IMG/VR virus record: IMGVR_UViG_3300029319_000010
Coordinates: 1 to 64,000 of that record
Length of the DNA stretch: 64,000 nt
Reading direction: 5' to 3' (one strand)
Source: a virus
Below, one piece after another: positions 14,707 through 29,480 of this stretch. The position numbers and the translations under genes were made by a program. Each line of letters opens with the position of its first letter. The stretch's first letter is position 1. The notes under the pieces were generated by a model. The model was given only the letters and a program-made list of their open reading frames with translations. It made no database searches and had not been told where the DNA came from.

Positions 14707-17700
14707 TTATATTCTTGCTAATGATTGTAAGTAGCTTAACACATTACCACCTGTTTTTTTTGTTTGCAGATGATACATCTTATTTAGCTTTTTAAAAATT
14801 TGATTTGCCCTGTTTTGTTTTGGTCCATTATCAAAAGAACCTTTTATATAATCTTCATAAAATTTTATTTGTTGATTTAAATTTAAATTTAACTGTCCTC
14901 CCTTTTTATAGTTAACATCATCTAAATTATATTCAAAATTAAATCTAATACCTTTTAAATTTAATTTTTTATTAGGTTTATTAGCTAATCCTAATTTATA
15001 TAATTCTTTTAAAACTGTAGGTGATATTTTTTCACCTTCTAAATTTTTCTTATAGTCTTTAAATAATCTACTATACTTTCTTACTGAACCACCTTTTCTT
15101 CTATAAGCATTTATATATTTTTGAACACTTTTTTTACCCTCTAATGTTTTTACTTTATCTTCAAATTTATCATCATTACGTAAAACTAACATGTTTACAT
15201 AATCCCTAGTTTCTTTAGGTAAATCATTAACCCAAGACATATCATCACTATAGATATCTACACCCGCATTTTTCTTTTCATTTAAAAAGTTGTTAAGTTT
15301 AGTAGAACCCCAATTATATGCTGCTAATGTTTTAGCTAGTCTTACATTTTGATCTTGATTACCTTTATTAATCCATGGTCTATTATATAAATCATTCATA
15401 TACCACTTTTGAACAGCCATAGCATCTCTATAATCTGTTAAATCTACATCTTTGTCTCCTGTAGCATTTATATAATCTGTTAAAGTATCTGGCATTATTT
15501 GTGTTAAACCTTTAGCTCCTGCAGGAGAAATAGCATTAGGATCTAATGCAGACTCTGCCATAGCTTGTAATAATAATATATCTTTTCCAACTTCTGTTGA
15601 GTCATCTCTATCTATACCAACTGGTAAACCATCATCATCTCCATCTTTAAATGTATCTTGTAATGTTATTGGTCCGTATGATTCACCTCCATCATCATAT
15701 CTTGGACCACCAGATTGCTGATCTAAAATAAAAGGACTGGCTATAGCAGGAGGTATAATTGCAGGTAACCTATTTAATTGTTGAGATAAAAAATTTATAT
15801 TGCTTGGATCCTTTGACATAAACTGTGGTATCCTAGGCATATAAGGAGGATTTCCTGTAACACTTGTTATATTAGGAGCTCCAGGGGTAGGAACATCAAT
15901 TGCATTTAAATACTTGGTAAGAATACTGGGTGTTATCTCATCATAAGTATTTTTAATAAATCCTCTTTGTAACATATCCCCTCTTAATTCAGCTAAGTAT
16001 GGCATGCCTTCTCCACTTGTTCCTATAGGGTTAGTTGAACTTATTCTTGTTGATGATAAATTTTTAGGATTAGGTTCTAACATCCTTGCAAAATAATTAT
16101 ATTGTTTTTCATTTCCACCAACTTTACCTAAGTTTCTTAACACATAATCTATTTGACGAGAACTCAAGTCATTTATATCCGTGTTATATAACGTCCTATC
16201 CATATTACTTGCTGGACCTGCTTTATAATTATAATTAGTTTTTAAACCTTTTTGTATAGCTCTATCTATATCTGTATTGTATACGGAAAATTTACCGGTA
16301 TATTCTGGATATATATCACTTAAATCTTTTTTAAGTTTTGTAGTAAGTGACTGTCTAATACTAGGATTATCAAAGTGTTTAGGATGTATTTTTCCTATAT
16401 TATATGGTAAATATTTAGTAATTCCTGCTCCAATAAAATGACCTATTTCATGGTCTGTAACAGGTATATTAGCTGTACTATGATAAGGTAAATTTTTATG
16501 TAAATATACTCTTGGTAAACCTGCTTGTATTGCACCAGGATTATTGCTTCTAAAAGGAGCATTAAAACCAAATGATCCATAGTCATCAGTCATATTTACT
16601 ACTCTCATTTGTGATGCATCAACTATCATGTCATCTATTACACCATTTACCAAACGTTCATATTGATTTACTTTACCCGCCTCAGTAACAGGTCTTTTAG
16701 TAAATAATTTACCAGGCCCTATAATTTCTTCATCAATTAAACCCCTCATTCTTAATCTAAATTCAGGTGTTAACATTCTTTGTTGTAAGTCAGTAACTCT
16801 TGAATTTGCTAGTTGTGAATAGTTATAACCCTGTTCCATATTTTCTCGCATCAACATCACTTCTTCTGCAGTAAATTCTTTACCAGATGGCCCTCCTTTA
16901 AGAACGCCTGGAGAGGTTGATGGTGTTGGATTTGTATTTTTTAATAAAGGAGAATACTTAAATTTATTAGCCATGTGTGCTACTTCAAGACCACCAAAAG
17001 TAATACCAAGTAAATCTAAACCTACATTAACTCCTGTACGTAATGAAGGATCTTCAACAAAATCTTTAACATCTCCAGGTAAACTATATCCACCGTATAA
17101 ACCACCTGCTATATTTATTCCACCTCCTACTGTTGTACCTGTATAAGGTATTGGTGTATTTAATAATGCACCAGTAGCTTGAATAATTGATGGTCCTGCT
17201 ACACCCGCTGTTGTTAAAACAGGTATAGCTTGAATACCATAATCTATTGCTTTAGTTGTTGCTTGTAATCCTTCAATACTACCATACAATGGATCTACTA
17301 CTGCATTAAAAACAGGATTTGTTAATTCTTGTCTTCTAAGATATGGTGTATTATAATTAGAACGTTCCCATTCAATACCCATAAAGTCTGTATCTTTACC
17401 AGTTTTATCTCTTAAATAGTCAGCATACTCAAGAACTGGATCCTTATCTATAAGCTCAACTGGATCTAATTCATAAAGTTGGTTATATAAATATCTATGA
17501 TCTCTTGATCCATAATCTGTGCTAATCATAGGAACTCCCTCTTCATTATAATAAGTTATAGGAAATTCTTTTTTACCTACTTTTACTACACCATCATCTT
17601 CAATAAATTGTCCTTGTGAATTAAACTGTCCTTTATCTTGATATGATGGTAGTTCTGCACCATATTTAGCATAAGTAACATTACCATCACCTTCATCCAT

Positions 17701-20700
17701 TGCAATCTCATTTAGATACTTAAATACATTTTCTTTAGTGTCATTTAATTTATTTTCATAATGATCATATAAATCATTTACTACCTTATCTTTTAAATCA
17801 ATATAATTTTGCTCAAAGTTTTTTAAATATTGTAATTCTTCTTCTGTAAGTTCTTGTCTATTAAATTGCCAATCATCTGGTTTATCTCCATAGTACTCAC
17901 TATTCTCTTTATGAAATCTAGAGTTCTTTTTAAGTATATCATTTATTTTTTTATGAGTTTCTTCTGTAAAAAAATTATTAAACTGTTTATTTATTTTTTC
18001 TTGTTGTTCTCTACTTGCATCTTTATATCCAGGTATATCCATTTCAAATGTCTCACGGAGTTTGTAGTTATCTGGATCATATTTACTTGAAAAATATCTA
18101 TGATTTTTACTAGCAAATAAACCCTCAAAACGGTCATCTCCAATCAAATCTATAGGTTTTTTATCTCTTACACTTCCATAATACTCTACATCTCTTGGAA
18201 ATAAAGGTTTACCTCCTATATTTTGTAATATACGTTTGCTTCTACCTGTAAAAGGAACTGTTATCCCTGAGATCTGGTCAAAATTACCTTCTTCATTATA
18301 GTAGCCATCTTCCCCATACCATGTTGCACCTGTTTCTAAATCATCTAAGGTAAACTTATCACTCAAAAAATCTTTTACATTTTTATTTTCAAATCTTTCC
18401 CTTCTTTTATATGTTCTTCTTTTATCCCCCTCTCTATCTAAATGTTCAGGTACTTGATATTTACTATCTATTTGTTTTAATATATTTTGACTTTCTAATA
18501 ATTGATTTCTAGGAGATATCTCATCACCAGAAAAGAAATCACTTTTATCAAAATCAGTGCCTTCTCCTTGAGGAAATTCTAAATTTACATAACCTTGATT
18601 TGCCCAAGGAGTATAATCTTCTAAAATTCCTGTTGGATTTAATATACCTAAATCATCTAAATATGTAGCTCCTTCATTTTGTACTCCTACTAAACGTAGT
18701 GGATCTTTTTCATAACTTATAAACCCTCCTGCACCTGTACCTGGATGAGCTAAAAAGTCTGGGTTATCTAAATTCTTTATAAGTTTTTTATAATTTTTTT
18801 CTGTAAAAGGTCCTTCATTAGGATCCCATATATTAAAATCTTTTAATGCTTTTTCAAACATAACTTTACCAGCTCCTATTTCTCCTATGTCTGATATATG
18901 AGGTAATTGTTCTTCAATAAAATTTTGATCATATTTACCTTGTTGATCAAATATATTTTTATAAAAATCTATTTCATTAGTTGGTGTTGTATATCCTTCT
19001 ACACCTCTCCATAATGGAGAGTGTGGACTATTATATAAATGACTTACCTCATGCTCTTTTATTATATCTGCATATGGATGTATTCCATCTTCACCATAGA
19101 GATATGAAAAAGATTCTGGCCCACCAGGAGCATAAAATCTTGCTAAAGCTTCAAACTCTCTTGGCCCTAATAAAGCTAAATCCTTAAAATCATATTCTCC
19201 AGTATCCTCATTTAATTCATATTCTACATGACCGCGGCTTTGATTTATTATATTTTTTAATAAATCAGGGTTCATCCTTGACAGATTATTTATACCTTCT
19301 TCTGTATAAAAATCATATGCATTTTCATCATTTACTGGTAAGTCATAATTAATAGGAGTTGCTATATCTGGAACTTGGCTTGTATATTCAATTTGTTCTG
19401 CAATTCTTCTATTCCATTCGTCTTCAGTCATATCATTCCCAGTAACATTTTTATATTGTTTAAAATATCTATCTTTAAATGCAGGAGAATTATATTTTTC
19501 AATTAAATTTTCTTTTTGTTTTGATATATCATAAAAATCATAATCAGGATAATATGTTTGTGTACGTTTAGGTTCAATTAATTCAACTTCCTCTAAATCT
19601 GTTACTTCACCTTGATCTTGATATGTTGGTAGTTCTTGAATAGAACCTCCATCTACCTTTTTCAAATATTTACTTAACCCTTTACTACCATAGTAAGCAC
19701 CTTTTAAAAGTTTAGGGATACCACCCATAAAACCTAAAGGAGCAGTTCCTCCCATAGGTGTAATATCACCATAATCTACACCTAGCATTAAATCACCATC
19801 TTCATTTCTTACATAACCTGCAATTCTTTCTGATTCAGATTTTTGTTCATCAGTAAGTTCCATGTTTGCACTAAATGCAGAAAAGTCTTCTTCATCTATC
19901 TCACCATCTGAATCTAATTCTTCACCAGTTTCAGCTATTGGTAATAGTTTTATTTTATGGGGATCATCAGGAACATTAGCTGGAGCTTTATACTTTTTAA
20001 GTTGTTCCATTTCCTCATCAACCTTTTTATTTGATCTACTGCCTATTTCACTTATAGGTGCACCTAAAATATTTGTTTCTATTATAGGTCTAATGTCTGG
20101 ACCAGCATGTGCACCTTCTTCCATTGTACCATGTGTATGATATAAAGCATCTTGATCACCTCCTGCTTCTATATAGTCCTTAGCATAATCTTTTAAATAG
20201 GCAGCTCTACCTCTTTCATTATGTTGAAATGTATGAGTGGCTTCATTTATAAAATCTAATAATAATTGATAATCACTACGCACTAAAGGTTCACCAGTTT
20301 CAGGATGTGTATTTTTAAGCATTATTGTAGGACGCTGTCCTAATGACCAATTATCAAAATAGTCTCTAGTACCCTCATATATATGTACTGCAGGACTATT
20401 TAATCTTGTATATTCATTTATAAAATTTTGTTTTATTTCATCAGTGAGTCTTCTATCATCTGAATTCATAATTCTATCTATAAATTGTTGTGTTTGCTCA
20501 TCATGTTTAGCTTCTCCTTTCTTTTCATTAAGATATCTTTCTCCCCGCCATATAAACATTTCTGAATCAGCATGATTTTTTTGAGCATTAGAAAATGCCT
20601 CATTTAAATTACCTCCCTCTACAGTTGGATACATTTTAGGAATTCCAAATTTATTAAAGTCACCTGAATAATTATAAGGATTTGTCCAAGCTGGCATAGC

Positions 20701-21282
20701 TGTATCCCAACTAGAATATACAGCATCAGCCGTGCCCTTTAAAAAATCTATAATACTAGTTTCGGTTCCATCCTGTGCTTCTTCTAATTCTTGTTGATCC
20801 TTTGTGCTATAAAATTTTTCATCTTGTTTATCATTAACCGGGTTAGTTCTTTTTCTTTCTAGTTGATAATCTCTAGCTGCTTGTACAATTTCTATTGGGT
20901 ATGCTTGAGGACTTGATAGTACTATCTGTAAAGCTTCTTGTACATCCATACCTTGTGATTCTGCAAACTTTTCAAATGGATGATTATCATATGCAGTATC
21001 CATAGTACCTCCTACTTGTGCTAATGGTATTTCTATAACTATATCTCCAGGAAATTGATAATTAAGATCAGGCATCATAATCTCACTATTACCAAAATTA
21101 TCTGTGCCCATAACAGGAAATGGAACGCCCTCCATAGTAATATTACTTGACTCAATAATATTAAAGTCATTATTAAAATCAGGACTACCTTCTTTATATC
21201 CTTCTACAGATATAGAGCCTTTTGAAGTTACCTCATTAGGTCCTCCTGGTAAACCACGTCTGTTATTAAATTTTATATTCAT
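14707..21282 (-). CDS. Giant virion protein with lytic transglycosylase and metallopeptidase-like modules, 2191 aa
   Basis: Near residues 1895-2000 is a soluble lytic transglycosylase domain: the Glu in 'AMAESALDPNAISPAGAKGL' is the catalytic acid, followed by 'TQIMPDTL'. Lytic transglycosylases cut peptidoglycan between MurNAc and GlcNAc, here presumably during DNA entry. Two HExxH motifs, 'KEHEVSHLYN' (about 743) and 'TDHEIGHFIGAG' (about 1609), suggest zinc metallopeptidase folds; a third region near 347 ('NEATHTFQHNERG') looks like a degenerate relative. Residues about 1350-1400 are Gly-rich and hydrophobic. An Asp/Gly-rich calcium-like stretch precedes the transglycosylase domain. Y-Q-D-x-G motifs occur near residues 552 and 1214. 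It overlaps the hub gene stop by one base. The likely role is a multidomain ejected protein that opens the cell wall. Confidence 0.85.
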   Translation of the reverse strand: MNIKFNNRRGLPGGPNEVTSKGSISVEGYKEGSPDFNNDFNIIESSNITMEGVPFPVMGTDNFGNSEIMMPDLNYQFPGDIVIEIPLAQVGGTMDTAYDNHPFEKFAESQGMDVQEALQIVLSSPQAYPIEIVQAARDYQLERKRTNPVNDKQDEKFYSTKDQQELEEAQDGTETSIIDFLKGTADAVYSSWDTAMPAWTNPYNYSGDFNKFGIPKMYPTVEGGNLNEAFSNAQKNHADSEMFIWRGERYLNEKKGEAKHDEQTQQFIDRIMNSDDRRLTDEIKQNFINEYTRLNSPAVHIYEGTRDYFDNWSLGQRPTIMLKNTHPETGEPLVRSDYQLLLDFINEATHTFQHNERGRAAYLKDYAKDYIEAGGDQDALYHTHGTMEEGAHAGPDIRPIIETNILGAPISEIGSRSNKKVDEEMEQLKKYKAPANVPDDPHKIKLLPIAETGEELDSDGEIDEEDFSAFSANMELTDEQKSESERIAGYVRNEDGDLMLGVDYGDITPMGGTAPLGFMGGIPKLLKGAYYGSKGLSKYLKKVDGGSIQELPTYQDQGEVTDLEEVELIEPKRTQTYYPDYDFYDISKQKENLIEKYNSPAFKDRYFKQYKNVTGNDMTEDEWNRRIAEQIEYTSQVPDIATPINYDLPVNDENAYDFYTEEGINNLSRMNPDLLKNIINQSRGHVEYELNEDTGEYDFKDLALLGPREFEALARFYAPGGPESFSYLYGEDGIHPYADIIKEHEVSHLYNSPHSPLWRGVEGYTTPTNEIDFYKNIFDQQGKYDQNFIEEQLPHISDIGEIGAGKVMFEKALKDFNIWDPNEGPFTEKNYKKLIKNLDNPDFLAHPGTGAGGFISYEKDPLRLVGVQNEGATYLDDLGILNPTGILEDYTPWANQGYVNLEFPQGEGTDFDKSDFFSGDEISPRNQLLESQNILKQIDSKYQVPEHLDREGDKRRTYKRRERFENKNVKDFLSDKFTLDDLETGATWYGEDGYYNEEGNFDQISGITVPFTGRSKRILQNIGGKPLFPRDVEYYGSVRDKKPIDLIGDDRFEGLFASKNHRYFSSKYDPDNYKLRETFEMDIPGYKDASREQQEKINKQFNNFFTEETHKKINDILKKNSRFHKENSEYYGDKPDDWQFNRQELTEEELQYLKNFEQNYIDLKDKVVNDLYDHYENKLNDTKENVFKYLNEIAMDEGDGNVTYAKYGAELPSYQDKGQFNSQGQFIEDDGVVKVGKKEFPITYYNEEGVPMISTDYGSRDHRYLYNQLYELDPVELIDKDPVLEYADYLRDKTGKDTDFMGIEWERSNYNTPYLRRQELTNPVFNAVVDPLYGSIEGLQATTKAIDYGIQAIPVLTTAGVAGPSIIQATGALLNTPIPYTGTTVGGGINIAGGLYGGYSLPGDVKDFVEDPSLRTGVNVGLDLLGITFGGLEVAHMANKFKYSPLLKNTNPTPSTSPGVLKGGPSGKEFTAEEVMLMRENMEQGYNYSQLANSRVTDLQQRMLTPEFRLRMRGLIDEEIIGPGKLFTKRPVTEAGKVNQYERLVNGVIDDMIVDASQMRVVNMTDDYGSFGFNAPFRSNNPGAIQAGLPRVYLHKNLPYHSTANIPVTDHEIGHFIGAGITKYLPYNIGKIHPKHFDNPSIRQSLTTKLKKDLSDIYPEYTGKFSVYNTDIDRAIQKGLKTNYNYKAGPASNMDRTLYNTDINDLSSRQIDYVLRNLGKVGGNEKQYNYFARMLEPNPKNLSSTRISSTNPIGTSGEGMPYLAELRGDMLQRGFIKNTYDEITPSILTKYLNAIDVPTPGAPNITSVTGNPPYMPRIPQFMSKDPSNINFLSQQLNRLPAIIPPAIASPFILDQQSGGPRYDDGGESYGPITLQDTFKDGDDDGLPVGIDRDDSTEVGKDILLLQAMAESALDPNAISPAGAKGLTQIMPDTLTDYINATGDKDVDLTDYRDAMAVQKWYMNDLYNRPWINKGNQDQNVRLAKTLAAYNWGSTKLNNFLNEKKNAGVDIYSDDMSWVNDLPKETRDYVNMLVLRNDDKFEDKVKTLEGKKSVQKYINAYRRKGGSVRKYSRLFKDYKKNLEGEKISPTVLKELYKLGLANKPNKKLNLKGIRFNFEYNLDDVNYKKGGQLNLNLNQQIKFYEDYIKGSFDNGPKQNRANQIFKKLNKMYHLQTKKTGGNVLSYLQSLARI

Positions 21283-24200
21283 TATCTAAAACTATAATTT
21301 ACTTTTGTATTTGCTAATTTTAACACCATCTTTCTATTTTTTGAAACTGTTCTTCTTAATAGTATTTTATTATAATAATGTCTAAACTTCTTTCTTTGCA
21401 ATTGATTTTTATTATAATTTAAGTTTGCTTCATTTAAGTCTCTTATATACCCATTTAGCTGTGTAATAAATATTGACTCTGTAGCATCACTAAATTCACC
21501 TCTATCATAAGTAATATCCCAGAACTGATTAAATCTAAATTTCTGCTCCTCTTTACTATATAATATTCTTATATCATTTGCTGTTACTATTGGATAATCT
21601 GTAATTAAAGGTACATCATTTTTAGGATTAAGATCTAATGTTAATAATCCAGATACTTGTTCTGAGTTATGAATAATTGCCTCATCAAAGTTAAAATCAA
21701 GATCATGAAATCTATCTCCACAGTTATTATCTAAATTACCTTTATATATCCAACTCTCTAACTGATACTCTATACTCTTAACCGTATTAACTTGTTGACC
21801 AATTGCTTCAACCCATTCTATTTCCCAAGGATAGTCTTCATCATAATAATTTGTATATAAATCACAACGTACATTATGCTTCCAGGTACCTCCCCTTAAA
21901 TAACTTGGAGGAACTTGACAGACACCATCAAACAAACATGTTTTAGGAAATGGTTCCATATCCCCATTAAGGTAATCTTGATAATATCCTGGATCTCCTA
22001 AAAGATAAAAATCAGGACAATCTCCTTGTTCAGTTATAACAGTTTCTGGTGAAACATTAGAATCATCACAAAAACAATCTACTCTTCTACATATAAAACT
22101 ACCTGGGTTACATTGTCCAACAGGTGATGCAAAGTATCCTGATTCATCTTGAAATACAATTTCAAAACCTGGTTCATTATCACAATCACATATATTATCA
22201 CCATCAACTCTATATGTACAATCTAAACTAGCTACAACATCAATTGCAGGTTGAGCAAAAGTACCAGGATAAACTTGATAAGCACTTCTTGGATTAGCAG
22301 CAACTGCTCCTTGATAATCATCCATTATCCAAGCTTCATCCCACCACCACTGATCTACATCATAATAAATTTGTTGAAACTTATAAATAGACCAAACATA
22401 TTCGTCTGTTGCTTCTTGTCCTGCCTTAACAGCAATAACACCAATATTCATATGAGTTTGACCTAAAGCTGCAAAACAATCCGCAAGAGGATCTTCACCT
22501 GGTAAAAGACCTTGTGTAACTCCTACATGATTAGCAAATTCTATATTAGGATAGGTTGGAGTAACACAACCAGCAGGTGCAAAACTACTTGCCGCTTCAT
22601 GTAAGCCCAGCTCTCCAGTTCTCCATAACATAGCATTTAATGTAGGACCTGTACCAACACCATCATCAGCTAAACAGTTCTGTTCAAATTCACTATTATC
22701 ATCAACATCAGCACCAGCACCAGCATCTGTAATTATTACAGCTATTCTTTTTAAATTTGGATTATCAAATCTACTACCTGAGTGTGATAAACCCTGTGCA
22801 TTTACAACTGAAGCATCAGGATATTCAAATGGATCATCTGCATATACTCTTGCAGAATTTACAGCACCAGCATATGTTGTTGAACTATTACCAAGATCTG
22901 CTTGATCTAACTCTCCCAAGCCAGTATAGCCAGGAGCAATACCTATAAAATTTCTTATAGAAGAATAACTATTTGTAAAACGTAAATTTTTTCTATTAGA
23001 ACTTGTAATATCTAAATCACGGTTCACTGATGCAAGACCAGCCCATTGTACAATTGCTATTTGAACAGCACCACTAGTTATTTCAGCTTCTAGCTCTTCT
23101 ACAAATCTATCCATAAATAGCAACTCAGCTTTCCATGCAGCATCACCACTATATCCTGTACTACCTGATGCATCTACAGCAAGCACAATATCATAAGGAC
23201 ATGCTGCTGTTTCAGAAGATACATTGTCATCAAAGTTACCTTGTCTTTCTTCTACTTGTATTGTTGCTGGAAATTCTCCTGCAAGAAATTGTTCACATTG
23301 ACCTGTTGTAGGATTAAAATTAAAACCTGGAGGACATAATGGATCTTCTGTTATTTTAGATTTTGTAGTTAAGAAATGATTTAAACTTGGTAAAACTAAT
23401 TCTGGATGCCAATCATGGAATGATATCCAAGCCTTAGCTTTTGGGTCATAACTGACTGTCCATGATACATCTTCAAAATATTTTGTGTCATCTAAAGCAA
23501 CTGGTGTTGTTTGATCTATCAATCCAAGTGGCGCAGCCATTTCAAGACATTCACATGTCCAATTATTATTTGCATCTTGTATAGGTTCACATTCAGGTGG
23601 GCACTCAATTATCTCTGTAGTAGTTGTAACACCTTCAAATAATTGTATTGCCATATTATTAGCAACTTCCATATTATATCCTCCAATACCCCACTGATTT
23701 GGACCAGGACCAGATCTTGCTGCTGTATAATCTATATTTCCTTGAGTAGGTTCTACAACTGCAGGATAATCTGAAAGTAGTTCTGGAAATGTTCCATCAG
23801 GGTTTAACATGCTAGGATGAAGAATTTTTGGTTCAAAGTGAAAAGCCCACACTTGTAGTTGACCATTAAAAGCAAGTGCATCTTCATTTTGATAATTTGA
23901 TGTAGGATCAAATATATTATTATTCAACCAAGTTATAAAACTATCATTTTGTTCTAAATCATTATAAGAAGATGTTATTTGAGCTACCTCTGCATATGGC
24001 AAATAACCTATTAAAGGACCATCTGGAATATTATCAATATTAATACCCCATTCATTTTCTTGATAGAAAGATAAATCTCCTGGTTGTCCAGGATTTATTG
24101 ATAATGTATTTACCATTGGTGTAGTAGTAGGTGTTGCTGTACTTGTACCACTATCATATCCGTATCCATCCCCCAAGTGACTTGGTAGTGCAGTTGTATC

Positions 24201-27200
24201 ATACCTATCATCAATTTGTACATGAACTTTATTTACATCTGTTCTACCATTGGTATATAAATAATCTAAAGCTTCCCAAAATGCTCTAGTATTATTAGCA
24301 CCACCTGATATACCTACATCATATTCTTGATAAGCAATTTCATCCTCTTCACTCATAGGTATTTGATATTCCTCTAATCCTGTTTGATTACCTGGGAAAA
24401 GTACATTATTTGCCCACCATATTAATTGTCCAAAATCATCTGTAAAAGGTTGTATGTATCTACCTGCAGTATCCCAAGTTCTAATAGCTATTTGAACATC
24501 TCCATCAGCTAATTGTTCTCCAAAAGAATTTATAATATTTAATAAAAGAGCTTGAAGTATCTCTATATTGTCTTCTATATCTGCTCCACGTGTTACTTGA
24601 ACACTAAGTATTATATCAAACTTTGGTTTTGCAATAGTTGTTGATTCTGTTATATCAGGATCAACATAATAAACTCTTTCACATTTACCATTTCCTACAT
24701 ATGTAAATCCTTCTGGACAACATTCAATTTGAGGTAGTCCATCACATTTTGTTTGGTTATAAACAAAACCATCACAAGCATTAAACTCAATACAATCAGA
24801 AGTACAAGAAAAATCTTTTTTCATAAAATATACTAGATCATAATTAGGATCATATACTGATTGACAGCCTACACCTGCAACTGGATTATCAGACCATTTA
24901 GGACAAGTTTCTAATTCTGGAAATTGTTTAATTAACTGTGATGGTAAGTATTGATTAAACCATTGTTTCATACCTAGATTAGATATGTTATTTAATCCTT
25001 TACCTGCCATATGAAATATCTTACCCTGTGCTTGTGATATATAAAACATACCAGCTGGTGTATTAATAACACTTCTAGCACTTTCACAAGATCCATATTC
25101 ATGCGGTAAGTCTGCATTTACAAGATTTTGCATAGGTTGACTAAATAGTCCTCCATCACCAATAGTAAGCTTAGTACCAAGATCTGTTCTTAATGTATCT
25201 ACACCTTGAAATAAAGCTGGTGCTAAATGTGGGAATAAAATTACTGCACCGCTTTTAGATATAGGTTTAATGACATTTACTTGATTTTTAAAATCTTTAT
25301 AATTGTTTGGCAGGAATACTCTCCAAAAATCTTTTTTGGCTTCATTCTGAGCTTGTAATGAATATGCTAACCTTTTAGGGTAGTGTGTATTACATGTTTC
25401 TGCAACAAATGGATCATAGTCTCTTGGTTGTAATCTGCCTGAATTAATTCTAGTAGTTGGAAAGTTAGCATATGTAAGAGAATTGTCATACTTATAGAAA
25501 TTTCCTATTGAAAGAATTTCTGCATGAAATAAATCATTTATATCAGCATACTCTAACCAATCATAATGTCTTTTACCTTTTTGATCTTCATAATCTCTTT
25601 GAGCCACATTAATTTCTGACTCAACCCAAAAATCTTGAATTCCATTTACATGTGTATAAAAATATCTATCCTTTATATGGAAAAAACTTTTACCTCTTTT
25701 ATCATGTGTCTCATCTACAGTATCTGGACCAGAATTTATAGGTTGAACTGAACCATATGGATTAGTTGCTTGTAATGGTTCAAGTGAAATAGAACCCCCG
25801 TCAGCACCATCTCCACCTCCTTCATATCCTATTACATTACCGTCATCATCAAGTATTTCTTCCATATCTCCTCCGCTAGCATCGCTTCCATCAAAACTCC
25901 AATTCATAGTAACTAAACCAGGATCACCGTCTGGATATTGAATTCCTGTCATACCTTCACTTTTATCTACACCACCAATAGTAAAAGCTTCACACTGTAC
26001 ACTACCATCATCTAAATGAAAAAAACCATTAGGCATAGCACCATATAGAGAAGCTGGAGTATCTAACCATGCAAAGTTAGTTATATATCTAGCAAGGTTA
26101 GAAAGATCATATCTAATGAAATTTGCCCAATACATAGGAAACATTACATTTGCTCTAAGCCTGTAATCATAAGGAAAGCCATCAGGTTGACCTAATAAGA
26201 AGTCCCAGTAAAAAGGCATTATATTTTTTTCTGTATATCTATTTATATAACAATCACCTCCATATAGAGTGTCAGATTTTAATCTTGTATCAATATTAGC
26301 TATTAAAGTAATATCATCACCAGAATAACCTCCTTCAATTGATGGTAACTGATTCTTAACATATTGTATACCACTTCCAAACTCTCCATTAGTTATAGGC
26401 ACTTGTTTAACTTGATCAAGTTGACCATATTGATTTTCAAATTGTACTTTTAAACCAACATATTGTGCAGCAATATTTCTTGTAAAAGGTCTAGTAGGAT
26501 AAGTTGTATTACCTTCTTGACCTATAGTCCTTCTTGAATTGTCAGCACCATCAGCTCCTGGAGCTATATAACCTAACATCTTTGCCTGATCTCCTTCTAT
26601 TGGAAGGCTGCCATCAAGAAGCCCTTCATATCCTTCTCCTACTAATGCTACTGTATTTGGTCTAAACAAATTATTCATTTTAATAGTAGACGTCAAGTTT
26701 TGCATTGTATTTTTTACATATCTTGCTTTTCTACATCTTGTCCTCATAGGGGTATTTACACCTCCCTTATCTCCATCACCATCTAAATATTGCAACTCAG
26801 TTCTCCAATAAAGACCATGGCCATTATATTTCATAGCATAGTCTTGAAAACTACATAACTCATATATTAAGTTAATAATATGATTACCACCCTCTGCAGT
26901 CATATTTATAAACGCAAACACACCATACAAAGGTTGTAGTACAGCAGGAAGATCACCAAACCATGCTTCACCTCTATCATAATTAACTTGAACACCTCCA
27001 TCTTGATAACCACCTACCATACCTTGAGTAGTTAATGCAAAACCAGCAGTATTACCAGCCTGTGCTAGTTGTTGACCTATACCAGGAGCACCAAAAACAG
27101 TGGATGCAGTTGAAACAGTTTCTGTTCCAGCTGCTACACCTTGCTGTCCATATAAAGCTAATAAGTTACCACCAGAAATACCTGCACCAAGAAGTGGTGG

Positions 27201-29480
27201 ATTTACTGTTACCATAGGTTGTGGATAATCAACGGTTACTTGCCTTTTACCTCTTGTTCTTCCTATAGCATATCCTACACCTATAATAATTGCTATAAAT
27301 GCAGAAATATTTGTTAGTAGTTTTTGTTGTGGATGTTTCTCAGACACTTTAAATCTTCCTATACTTTGTCCAGTAGTAATACCATAACTTTTAATTTCAT
27401 AAGGACTTAAAAAAGGTTGATTAATAGATGTATCTGGAGAATGAAAAGTAAACATGTTTTTATATACAAATCTCCACTGTCTAGAAGCCGAATCAGGTAT
27501 AGTACCCAAACCTTGATATGGATTTGCATTATTTCTACTAGGGTATGCAAATTCAGGTATATCATCATCTGGTACATCACCTGGATCATGCAAGAATGCA
27601 TCACAACCTAAATCATTAAAAGGATAGTTTGCCATAACACCTATAGTGTCATTTGCTATACTTTCAGTAGAATCATTACCAACAGCATCTGGTGGTAATC
27701 TATATCCTTTCATATTTCTAGCTAATCCTTTTGCTATAATAGACTTATTGCCTTTTCTTGATCCAACTAATATTTCATAACCAACTATACCTGGCACTAA
27801 TGCACCTTCTCCTTGTGGATCTTCGCATACACCTACCGTTTCAGGATTTAATCTAGGTAATGCTATATTTTTAAACTTAACACCAAGAACTTGTATAGTT
27901 TGATTAAAATTAGTAGCCCTATGTATTGAACCAGTTAATGTAGATTGTTCATCTGGCATTTTATGATGTCTTATTGGTTTACCACATAAATCACCCCACC
28001 TCACTGGATCCATTGGATATCTTTCTGTTGATTCCCAGTATGCCATGTATCCCTCTTCAAAAATAATACCACCATCATTAGTTCTATAATTTGGCAAACT
28101 AAAAGGACCATCTACAGCATAACGTGCTGTATTATAAGATTGAAAAACCTTCTCTTCTCCAACATCTAAATTATTATTATCTCCGGCTGGAGTTAAATCT
28201 GTTACGGCTCCCATTGGTGGAGCATAAAATTCAGGGCCTCTACCAGGTATATGATATGAACTAGATTTTTCACCGGTATTATATATCCATCTAATAAAAA
28301 ATGCATACACTTCATCTCTCATAAATGTAGGCTTATTCCCTCCTTTTTTATAATAGTCAGCAGGAAATTTAGTTGACATCCATGTTGTTTCTATTTGATT
28401 TGCTAAAGGTTGATAATTAAAATCAAATCTTTCATATGGTCCTGATCTAATAAGATAGTCATTAACAACATACATCTTATCAGACTTTTCATAAACAGGA
28501 TTTCTTAAAGGTAAAAGTTCTATTGGAACTGATTTTAATGATCTATCAATATAATCTATCCCTATATGAGTTGTCTCCACACTATAAAAACCTATGTGTT
28601 TAGCAACAACCTCATTTTGATTATTACTTAATATAACAAGTTTAAACTCTTCAAATAAACCACCTCTATCTAAATTTCTTAGTTTAATATCTAATGAACC
28701 AGAAACATCTTCATGATCCCACAATGATTGTACATTAGAGACGCCTATATAATCACCTATTTGTTGTTCATTGATTGTATATGCTATAAATGCCTGATAT
28801 GATCCATTTCTTAACTGACCACCATTATCTGAACTAGATAAAATAACTTCAGGTGTATCCATTAAGGGAGCTAATCTTAGTAAATCACAATCTATTTGTA
28901 AAGGTTCTATTGGAACATATTGTATACAATCAGTATTTTCTATATCAACTACTTTCTCTGTCTTCCAAGGTATATTACTAATGTTCATTGTTCTAGATGG
29001 ATTTCTTCCATCATCCCAATATACTTGCCAAGTACAATCAAAATTTTCTTTTGATGCACCAGTAATTAAACAAAGTCTATTAAAATTTAAACAATTTTCA
29101 GGTGGACATTGTGTACTTGCACCATCATTAACTAAAGTTTCATAGGTACATTGACTATCATCAAAAATTCCTATTTCACTATTTATATCATCTGTTGAAT
29201 AAATAACCCACTTATCTCCATATAAATGTATTGTACCTATTACTGTATAAGTAATCTCTACACAGAATAAATTAGCTGGCTCATTACCTATTGCACCTAC
29301 ATCACCTTTGCTAGAATTATTTATAGCATTACGTGCATGTGTCCAATTATTTTTATCAGTTAAAGCAGCATTAGGGTCTTTACTCATACCCTTCAGAAAC
29401 ACATCTGTGTCTGTCTGCATAGTATTTTGCATACTAGCTTTACGCTGCCTTCTACTTTGATTTCTTCTTTTTTTAGCCAT
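21282..29480 (-). CDS. crAss-like tail hub/muzzle protein with inserted vWA domains, 2732 aa
   Basis: The N-terminal region ('DVFLKGMSKDPNAALTDKNN', then 'ARNAINNSSKGDVGAIGNE') and the C-terminal 100 residues ('KFRFNQFWDITYDRGEFSDA', then 'QLQRKKFRHYYNKILLRRTV') match, from memory, the large protein that follows the ring proteins in crAss-like phages and forms the distal tail (muzzle). Unusually, about 700 residues sit before that C-terminus. Residues about 1610-1800 form a vWA-like domain lacking the metal-ion motif, and residues about 2095-2330 form a vWA domain with an intact DASGS metal site. Short Cys-rich EGF-like segments flank them (about 1555-1600, 1940-1960, 2060-2075). A 'GGYQDGGVQV' motif occurs near residue 823. 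The likely role is a structural tail tip with added adhesive modules. Confidence 0.85.
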   Translation of the reverse strand: MAKKRRNQSRRQRKASMQNTMQTDTDVFLKGMSKDPNAALTDKNNWTHARNAINNSSKGDVGAIGNEPANLFCVEITYTVIGTIHLYGDKWVIYSTDDINSEIGIFDDSQCTYETLVNDGASTQCPPENCLNFNRLCLITGASKENFDCTWQVYWDDGRNPSRTMNISNIPWKTEKVVDIENTDCIQYVPIEPLQIDCDLLRLAPLMDTPEVILSSSDNGGQLRNGSYQAFIAYTINEQQIGDYIGVSNVQSLWDHEDVSGSLDIKLRNLDRGGLFEEFKLVILSNNQNEVVAKHIGFYSVETTHIGIDYIDRSLKSVPIELLPLRNPVYEKSDKMYVVNDYLIRSGPYERFDFNYQPLANQIETTWMSTKFPADYYKKGGNKPTFMRDEVYAFFIRWIYNTGEKSSSYHIPGRGPEFYAPPMGAVTDLTPAGDNNNLDVGEEKVFQSYNTARYAVDGPFSLPNYRTNDGGIIFEEGYMAYWESTERYPMDPVRWGDLCGKPIRHHKMPDEQSTLTGSIHRATNFNQTIQVLGVKFKNIALPRLNPETVGVCEDPQGEGALVPGIVGYEILVGSRKGNKSIIAKGLARNMKGYRLPPDAVGNDSTESIANDTIGVMANYPFNDLGCDAFLHDPGDVPDDDIPEFAYPSRNNANPYQGLGTIPDSASRQWRFVYKNMFTFHSPDTSINQPFLSPYEIKSYGITTGQSIGRFKVSEKHPQQKLLTNISAFIAIIIGVGYAIGRTRGKRQVTVDYPQPMVTVNPPLLGAGISGGNLLALYGQQGVAAGTETVSTASTVFGAPGIGQQLAQAGNTAGFALTTQGMVGGYQDGGVQVNYDRGEAWFGDLPAVLQPLYGVFAFINMTAEGGNHIINLIYELCSFQDYAMKYNGHGLYWRTELQYLDGDGDKGGVNTPMRTRCRKARYVKNTMQNLTSTIKMNNLFRPNTVALVGEGYEGLLDGSLPIEGDQAKMLGYIAPGADGADNSRRTIGQEGNTTYPTRPFTRNIAAQYVGLKVQFENQYGQLDQVKQVPITNGEFGSGIQYVKNQLPSIEGGYSGDDITLIANIDTRLKSDTLYGGDCYINRYTEKNIMPFYWDFLLGQPDGFPYDYRLRANVMFPMYWANFIRYDLSNLARYITNFAWLDTPASLYGAMPNGFFHLDDGSVQCEAFTIGGVDKSEGMTGIQYPDGDPGLVTMNWSFDGSDASGGDMEEILDDDGNVIGYEGGGDGADGGSISLEPLQATNPYGSVQPINSGPDTVDETHDKRGKSFFHIKDRYFYTHVNGIQDFWVESEINVAQRDYEDQKGKRHYDWLEYADINDLFHAEILSIGNFYKYDNSLTYANFPTTRINSGRLQPRDYDPFVAETCNTHYPKRLAYSLQAQNEAKKDFWRVFLPNNYKDFKNQVNVIKPISKSGAVILFPHLAPALFQGVDTLRTDLGTKLTIGDGGLFSQPMQNLVNADLPHEYGSCESARSVINTPAGMFYISQAQGKIFHMAGKGLNNISNLGMKQWFNQYLPSQLIKQFPELETCPKWSDNPVAGVGCQSVYDPNYDLVYFMKKDFSCTSDCIEFNACDGFVYNQTKCDGLPQIECCPEGFTYVGNGKCERVYYVDPDITESTTIAKPKFDIILSVQVTRGADIEDNIEILQALLLNIINSFGEQLADGDVQIAIRTWDTAGRYIQPFTDDFGQLIWWANNVLFPGNQTGLEEYQIPMSEEDEIAYQEYDVGISGGANNTRAFWEALDYLYTNGRTDVNKVHVQIDDRYDTTALPSHLGDGYGYDSGTSTATPTTTPMVNTLSINPGQPGDLSFYQENEWGINIDNIPDGPLIGYLPYAEVAQITSSYNDLEQNDSFITWLNNNIFDPTSNYQNEDALAFNGQLQVWAFHFEPKILHPSMLNPDGTFPELLSDYPAVVEPTQGNIDYTAARSGPGPNQWGIGGYNMEVANNMAIQLFEGVTTTTEIIECPPECEPIQDANNNWTCECLEMAAPLGLIDQTTPVALDDTKYFEDVSWTVSYDPKAKAWISFHDWHPELVLPSLNHFLTTKSKITEDPLCPPGFNFNPTTGQCEQFLAGEFPATIQVEERQGNFDDNVSSETAACPYDIVLAVDASGSTGYSGDAAWKAELLFMDRFVEELEAEITSGAVQIAIVQWAGLASVNRDLDITSSNRKNLRFTNSYSSIRNFIGIAPGYTGLGELDQADLGNSSTTYAGAVNSARVYADDPFEYPDASVVNAQGLSHSGSRFDNPNLKRIAVIITDAGAGADVDDNSEFEQNCLADDGVGTGPTLNAMLWRTGELGLHEAASSFAPAGCVTPTYPNIEFANHVGVTQGLLPGEDPLADCFAALGQTHMNIGVIAVKAGQEATDEYVWSIYKFQQIYYDVDQWWWDEAWIMDDYQGAVAANPRSAYQVYPGTFAQPAIDVVASLDCTYRVDGDNICDCDNEPGFEIVFQDESGYFASPVGQCNPGSFICRRVDCFCDDSNVSPETVITEQGDCPDFYLLGDPGYYQDYLNGDMEPFPKTCLFDGVCQVPPSYLRGGTWKHNVRCDLYTNYYDEDYPWEIEWVEAIGQQVNTVKSIEYQLESWIYKGNLDNNCGDRFHDLDFNFDEAIIHNSEQVSGLLTLDLNPKNDVPLITDYPIVTANDIRILYSKEEQKFRFNQFWDITYDRGEFSDATESIFITQLNGYIRDLNEANLNYNKNQLQRKKFRHYYNKILLRRTVSKNRKMVLKLANTKVNYSFR

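Follow-up and report, generated by a model that had tools for sequence, protein, structure and literature searches.

A large post-muzzle protein of a Crassvirales-related phage joins a lytic transglycosylase to exchangeable, putatively zinc-binding cassettes

In the phage phiCrAss001, the gene for the muzzle protein gp44 is followed by that for a cargo protein, gp45; parts of gp45 occur in the capsid as well as in the tail, and the protein is presumed to be ejected (PMC10172136). Combinations of zincins and lysozymes in single phage proteins have already been described by Iyer, Aravind and colleagues (2017) under the name of polyvalent proteins, which carry one to five zincin-like metallopeptidases (HExxH plus a Glu on a second helix) and sometimes a lysozyme or transglycosylase (PMC5512222).

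We analyzed a 64,000-nucleotide stretch (the window) that makes up part of a 114,213-base virus record, IMGVR_UViG_3300029319_000010, and contains on its minus strand an ATG-initiated ORF (14707-21282) encoding 2191 aa. The major capsid protein matches the Crassvirus capsid family (PF23898, E=6.8e-33), terminase and portal match those of crass-like phages, Cellulophaga phages, and Leptolyngbya phage Lbo-JY46, and the upstream neighbor of the ORF, a protein of 2732 aa, matches the crass muzzle. By its capsid, portal, terminase, and muzzle homologues, the phage is Crassvirales-related. The muzzle homologue has roughly twice the length of crAss001 gp44, and its aa 2097-2162 weakly match von Willebrand A (PF00092, E=0.013). 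Two contigs from one metagenome, L131 and L002 (39.7 and 73.9 kb), both break off inside a gene of the 2191-aa type and are 86% identical where they overlap; their summed length is about that of the window's record, and they possibly represent sister phages of the one in the window. The ORF and its parts, all on the minus strand, are as follows.

14707..21282, minus strand: whole ORF, modular virion cargo protein by its predicted role, 2191 aa; next gene after the crass muzzle homologue
20953..21270, minus strand: N-terminal domain, aa 5-110, putative docking or delivery domain (IMG/VR pattern matches, alignment A7)
20755..20781, minus strand: linker 1, EAQDGTETS, aa 168-176; cassette boundary relative to L131 and L002
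20083..20601, minus strand: z1, aa 228-400, zincin-like in register but non-canonical, with NEATH at 346-350 and MEEGAH at 387-392
19924..19944, minus strand: degenerate linker LPIAETG, aa 447-453; aligns with LPKAQNG of L002
19606..19632, minus strand: linker LPTYQDQGE, aa 551-559; aligns with LPKAQDG of L002
18721..19332, minus strand: z2, putative zincin, aa 651-854, with ligands H744, H748, and E801 and catalytic E745 assigned from homologue conservation
17626..17652, minus strand: linker LPSYQDKGQ, aa 1211-1219; identity to L002 restarts about here
15895..16548, minus strand: z3, putative zincin, aa 1579-1796, with ligands H1611, H1615, and E1758 and catalytic E1612 assigned from 13 homologues and a profile match to the z2 family
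15265..15594, minus strand: SLT lytic transglycosylase domain, aa 1897-2006, catalytic Glu E1910 (PF01464, phrog_342)
14722..14970, minus strand: conserved C-terminal tail, aa 2105-2187 (family alignment; 47 matches in the fetched loci)
21282..29480, minus strand: neighboring gene, crass muzzle homologue, 2732 aa (PF25731 crAss_MUZ, E=2.3e-22)

The original prediction for this protein, made from the letters of the DNA, was of a virion protein with a clear transglycosylase domain and several metallopeptidase-like motifs. The transglycosylase is indeed clear. In a PF01464 profile search, aa 1897-2006 scored 48.9 bits against a cut-off of 21.3 (E=5.6e-13), and E1910 lies within an intact SLT catalytic-Glu motif (MAESALDP..GAKGLTQIMP). 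The same region matches phrog_342, 'internal virion protein with endolysin domain' (E=1.6e-9), and the endolysin phrog_669. With its score above the cut-off and its catalytic Glu in place, this is an SLT lytic transglycosylase domain.

Both predicted HExxH motifs are also present (HEVSH at aa 744-748 and HEIGH at aa 1611-1615); when the same protein was shuffled, a mean of 0.032 such motifs arose by chance, and two or more appeared in 0.05% of shuffles. In z2, H744, E745, H748, and E801 are the only invariant columns of an alignment of 32 sequences (A13) whose mean column identity is 15%. Iterating the z2 profile yielded 60 matches, with HExxH in every row covering the site except one L002 cassette, and the downstream Glu is kept in 55 of the 57 rows that have a residue there. 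Because HExxH helped to anchor the z2-family alignment, we regard this downstream Glu as the more independent evidence. Among 13 homologues of z3, E1758 is invariant and H1611, E1612, and H1615 are nearly so, and comparison of the z2 profile with that of z3 gives a match across the Glu helix (95%, E=3e-8). When the z2 family (A13) was compared with PDB profiles, the top matches were all zinc metalloproteases, albeit weak ones (E of at least 0.006); the weak Pfam matches of the zincin set are to the M91 effector, SprT-like, and MPTase-PolyVal families, which are protein-cutting. The PDB profile search with z3 returned unrelated matches only. An AlphaFold model of z3, built from the 13-row alignment, reached a pLDDT of 44, too poor to use, and we discarded its PDB matches as meaningless; the zinc geometry is therefore a prediction from residue conservation. 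Judged by their homologues, z2 and z3 each have a complete HExxH+Glu zinc-ligand set and are predicted to bind zinc. Thus, of the three regions in which a third zinc ligand had been anticipated, z2 (E801) and z3 (E1758) supply one, and z1 has no canonical ligand set.

The z1 region did not bear out its reading as a degenerate third motif. What had been read as HTFQH (aa 350-354) reads better as NEATH (aa 346-350), where all six rows of z1 relatives, two of them the same cassette, have [N/D/E]ExxHxxQ; the first zinc His of HExxH is absent from every one of these six rows, and ExxAH follows downstream in all five related rows that extend that far. Structure prediction, suggested as a check, gave a z1 model with a pLDDT of 70.7 whose fold search returned nothing significant, and we count its weak matches to PPEP-2, Wss1, and IrrE-like zincins as no evidence. 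A profile comparison of z1 with the z2 family was negative (0.2%) and does not support their homology, and a joint z1 and z2 alignment (A9) was dropped since it misplaced z1 rows on z2. We conclude that z1 represents a consistent, distinct family that cannot be called a zinc protease.

Other metallopeptidase-like sequences were seen outside this gene. A putative DUF2201 metallopeptidase fused to a VWA-like domain lies in the genome's other half (L003:8667-9833; G000 72667-73833, plus strand), and a 3663-aa ORF in the record's far half (G000 103080-114071, minus strand, in L004-L005) has the HExxH motif HEAGH at aa 685. A metalloprotease domain is also annotated in crAss001 gp77.

The N-terminal domain defines a large family. 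Its pattern (GYKxxSPD..ITMxxVDFPVxGxDNLGN..MxPGxxYxFPGxxVxExPxAQxG) matched 436 IMG/VR stretches, 422 of which encode a relative, and the family alignment shows that the C-terminal tail is common to its members. Across 101 non-redundant N-domain proteins there are 44 HExxH motifs, compared with 1.2 expected; one or more occur in 32 proteins, two or more in 10. A domain scan of 26 N-domain proteins found LysM in 15, YkuD in 10, and SLT in 8, with Amidase_2, NlpC/P60, and Phage_lysozyme2 in single members each, and zincins co-occur in one chain with LysM, YkuD, SLT, or PG_binding. The N-domain is also found C-terminally or mid-protein in other cargo proteins (L108, L122, L104, and L019) and in the gene after the muzzle neighbor (e.g., L055:4031-6361); because it occurs at these other positions and in another gene, it may be a mobile delivery domain. 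Leptolyngbya phage Lbo-JY46 encodes a 495-aa protein (L128:6045-7532) with the same N-domain, a weakly transglycosylase-like C terminus, and no HExxH.

Evidence that proteins of this kind are carried in virions comes from cultured phages. In the Cellulophaga phage phi4:1, gp041 adjoins the structural protein gp042 at the muzzle position, is annotated from MS/MS proteomics, and contains two zincins recognized by the z2 profile (1e-33 and 4e-25); Cellulophaga phage phi17:2 gp042 is 98.6% identical to it and matches Phage_lysozyme2 (tail lysozyme) with E=9e-32. In phi14:2, a Cellulophaga phage classified in Crassvirales, gp081 adjoins a large structural gene, contains two zincins by the same profile (5e-24 and 5e-20), and was likewise detected by MS/MS. 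Because of this detection, at least two cultured phages can be said to carry zincin proteins of the post-muzzle position in their virions, and the prediction that the window's protein is one too gains from its equivalent position, from which we infer that it is packaged. These counterparts differ from the window's protein in having neither SLT nor LPKAQ motifs; instead, GGxVDPP[T/S]K precedes their zincins, and in phi4:1 the N-domain sits on the neighboring gp040 and not on gp041. Starting at GGxVDPPTK, the first zincin regions of phi4:1 gp041 and phi14:2 gp081 share 181 of 225 residues. The two phages, both of which infect C. baltica, are placed apart in classification, and the sharing is likely due to exchange. 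Cultured phages such as phi4:1 and phi14:2 allow a direct test of what zincins carried in a virion do.

In relatives of the window's protein, the linkers take the form GG-x-LPKAQ-x-G, and a scan found at least 120 such stretches in viral contigs. Prokaryote genomes gave 62 matches in 257 Gb, compared with about 60 computed by chance for the 33 bits specified; because these are near chance level, no host source of the motif is indicated. ORFs with LPKAQ have 43 HExxH motifs in 149,472 aa, versus 13 in 377,623 aa of other ORFs of the same loci. Comparison of close relatives revealed changes of whole blocks: L063 has an extra block relative to L047, between motifs at 522 and 1238 and with flanks 88-97% identical, and it differs from L093 by two cassettes, one of 204 aa and a zincin cassette of 322 aa. 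All of these cassette ends fall within about 12 aa of motifs. Between the window and L002, the flanks are 68% identical and the modules at z1 and z2 are unrelated, the L002 replacement module having an HExxH of its own. Whole cassettes are therefore inserted, lost, or replaced between close phages, often ending at GG-x-LPKAQ-x-G, which is newly reported here; our text searches of the open-access literature returned no description of this linker.

Taken together, these observations are probably best explained if the 2191-aa protein is an ejected, polyvalent, wall-breaching virion cargo of a Crassvirales-related phage, in which the SLT domain cuts glycan and the zincins cut proteins. The conserved N-domain and C-terminal tail would hold exchangeable middle cassettes between LPxxQxG-type linkers. 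After adsorption, the protein would be ejected through the muzzle, the SLT domain would open glycan strands, and the zincins would go on to cut proteins, with host envelope or defense proteins as the most likely substrates. We favor host proteins as the zincin targets because the zincins are hypervariable and exchanged as units, and the linkers and both ends are constant, although relaxed constraint would also fit the rapid divergence of the zincins.

A different target for the zincins would be the phage's own multidomain cargo, which they might process into units, possibly at the LPKAQ linkers. Self-processing of this kind has been proposed for polyvalent proteins (PMC5512222), and the linkers do lie between domains, at cassette boundaries. 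However, 19 of the 34 proteins with at least two LPKAQ motifs have no HExxH, which makes the motif independent of zincins, and the linker is nearly invariant, which the zincins are not. We consider such processing unlikely.

One role that the original prediction suggested, besides the processing of other virion parts, was drilling through the cell wall. The zincins would then be wall peptidases that cut stem peptides or cross-links, so that, with SLT, the protein would breach the wall alone. The family is dominated by peptidoglycan-binding and -cutting domains, and zincins occur in the same chains. On the other hand, known peptidoglycan metallopeptidases are mostly of LAS/M23/M15 type and not HExxH+Glu zincins; the usual substrates of such HExxH zincins are proteins, and wall peptidases mostly have other folds. 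The weak Pfam matches point the same way, and such hypervariability would be unexpected against peptidoglycan, which varies little. A wall-peptidase role is, in our judgment, slightly less probable again than self-processing, and the zincins more likely cut proteins, whether of host or phage, than peptidoglycan.

The linker might also be a DNA recombination site and not a functional peptide. Consistent with this, a motif is found within 20 aa of 11 of the 19 internal breakpoints, which come from seven pairs that are not independent; the figure for random points is 12%. The five LPKAQ codons of the linker, however, have 44 synonymous spellings in 127 occurrences, and identity within a locus (88%) hardly exceeds that of random pairs (85%). 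Because so many codon combinations encode it, we conclude that the motif is kept as peptide and not as DNA, and a recombination site seems very unlikely. That the zincins are inert structural relics, as the loss of the first His throughout z1 and the NEISH of one L002 cassette could suggest, is more improbable still, since z2 and z3 retain all four catalytic residues despite extreme divergence.

Within our preferred reading, in which the protein is ejected cargo, GG-x-LPKAQ-x-G may, tentatively, be a peptide tag that functions in docking, ordered packing, or cleavage and marks the limits of the plug-in effector cassettes that environmental crass-like phages have in their cargo. If this is true, these phages could exchange hypervariable proteases against host proteins, in an injected counterpart of polymorphic toxin arrays. 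With the linker as a sequence rule, single domains of injected effectors could also be located and delimited in a phage group that is abundant and has largely unannotated cargo.

The protein thus resembles, and departs from, known systems in several ways. Like phiCrAss001 gp45, a virion cargo presumed to leave the particle first (PMC10172136), it is encoded directly after the muzzle. The crAss001 gp45, however, has neither HExxH nor LPKAQ and no significant N-domain or zincin profile match, so that orthology is not supported by such profile matching and the 2191-aa protein looks like an extra post-muzzle gene and not a proven gp45 orthologue. The lack of any counterpart in crAss001 between gp45 and the muzzle gp44 counts against our reading of the protein as ejected cargo. 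With polyvalent proteins it shares a very large, multidomain architecture in a late-gene or virion context (PMC5512222), and, by its predicted domains, it is polyvalent in the sense that disparate enzymatic domains, SLT and two zincins, are joined in one polypeptide; given the virion presence of its counterparts, it may be injected into the host. The MPTase-PolyVal family PF18818 did not match the window's protein and weakly matched one relative in the zincin set (E=0.0094). The window's protein differs from polyvalent proteins in being a crass-type post-muzzle gene product with its own N-domain and LPKAQ-bounded cassettes. Finally, the presence of SLT, LysM, YkuD, and amidase domains in virion proteins likens the family to virion-associated peptidoglycan hydrolases and tail lysins, from which it is set apart by the fusion of these domains to hypervariable zincin cassettes.
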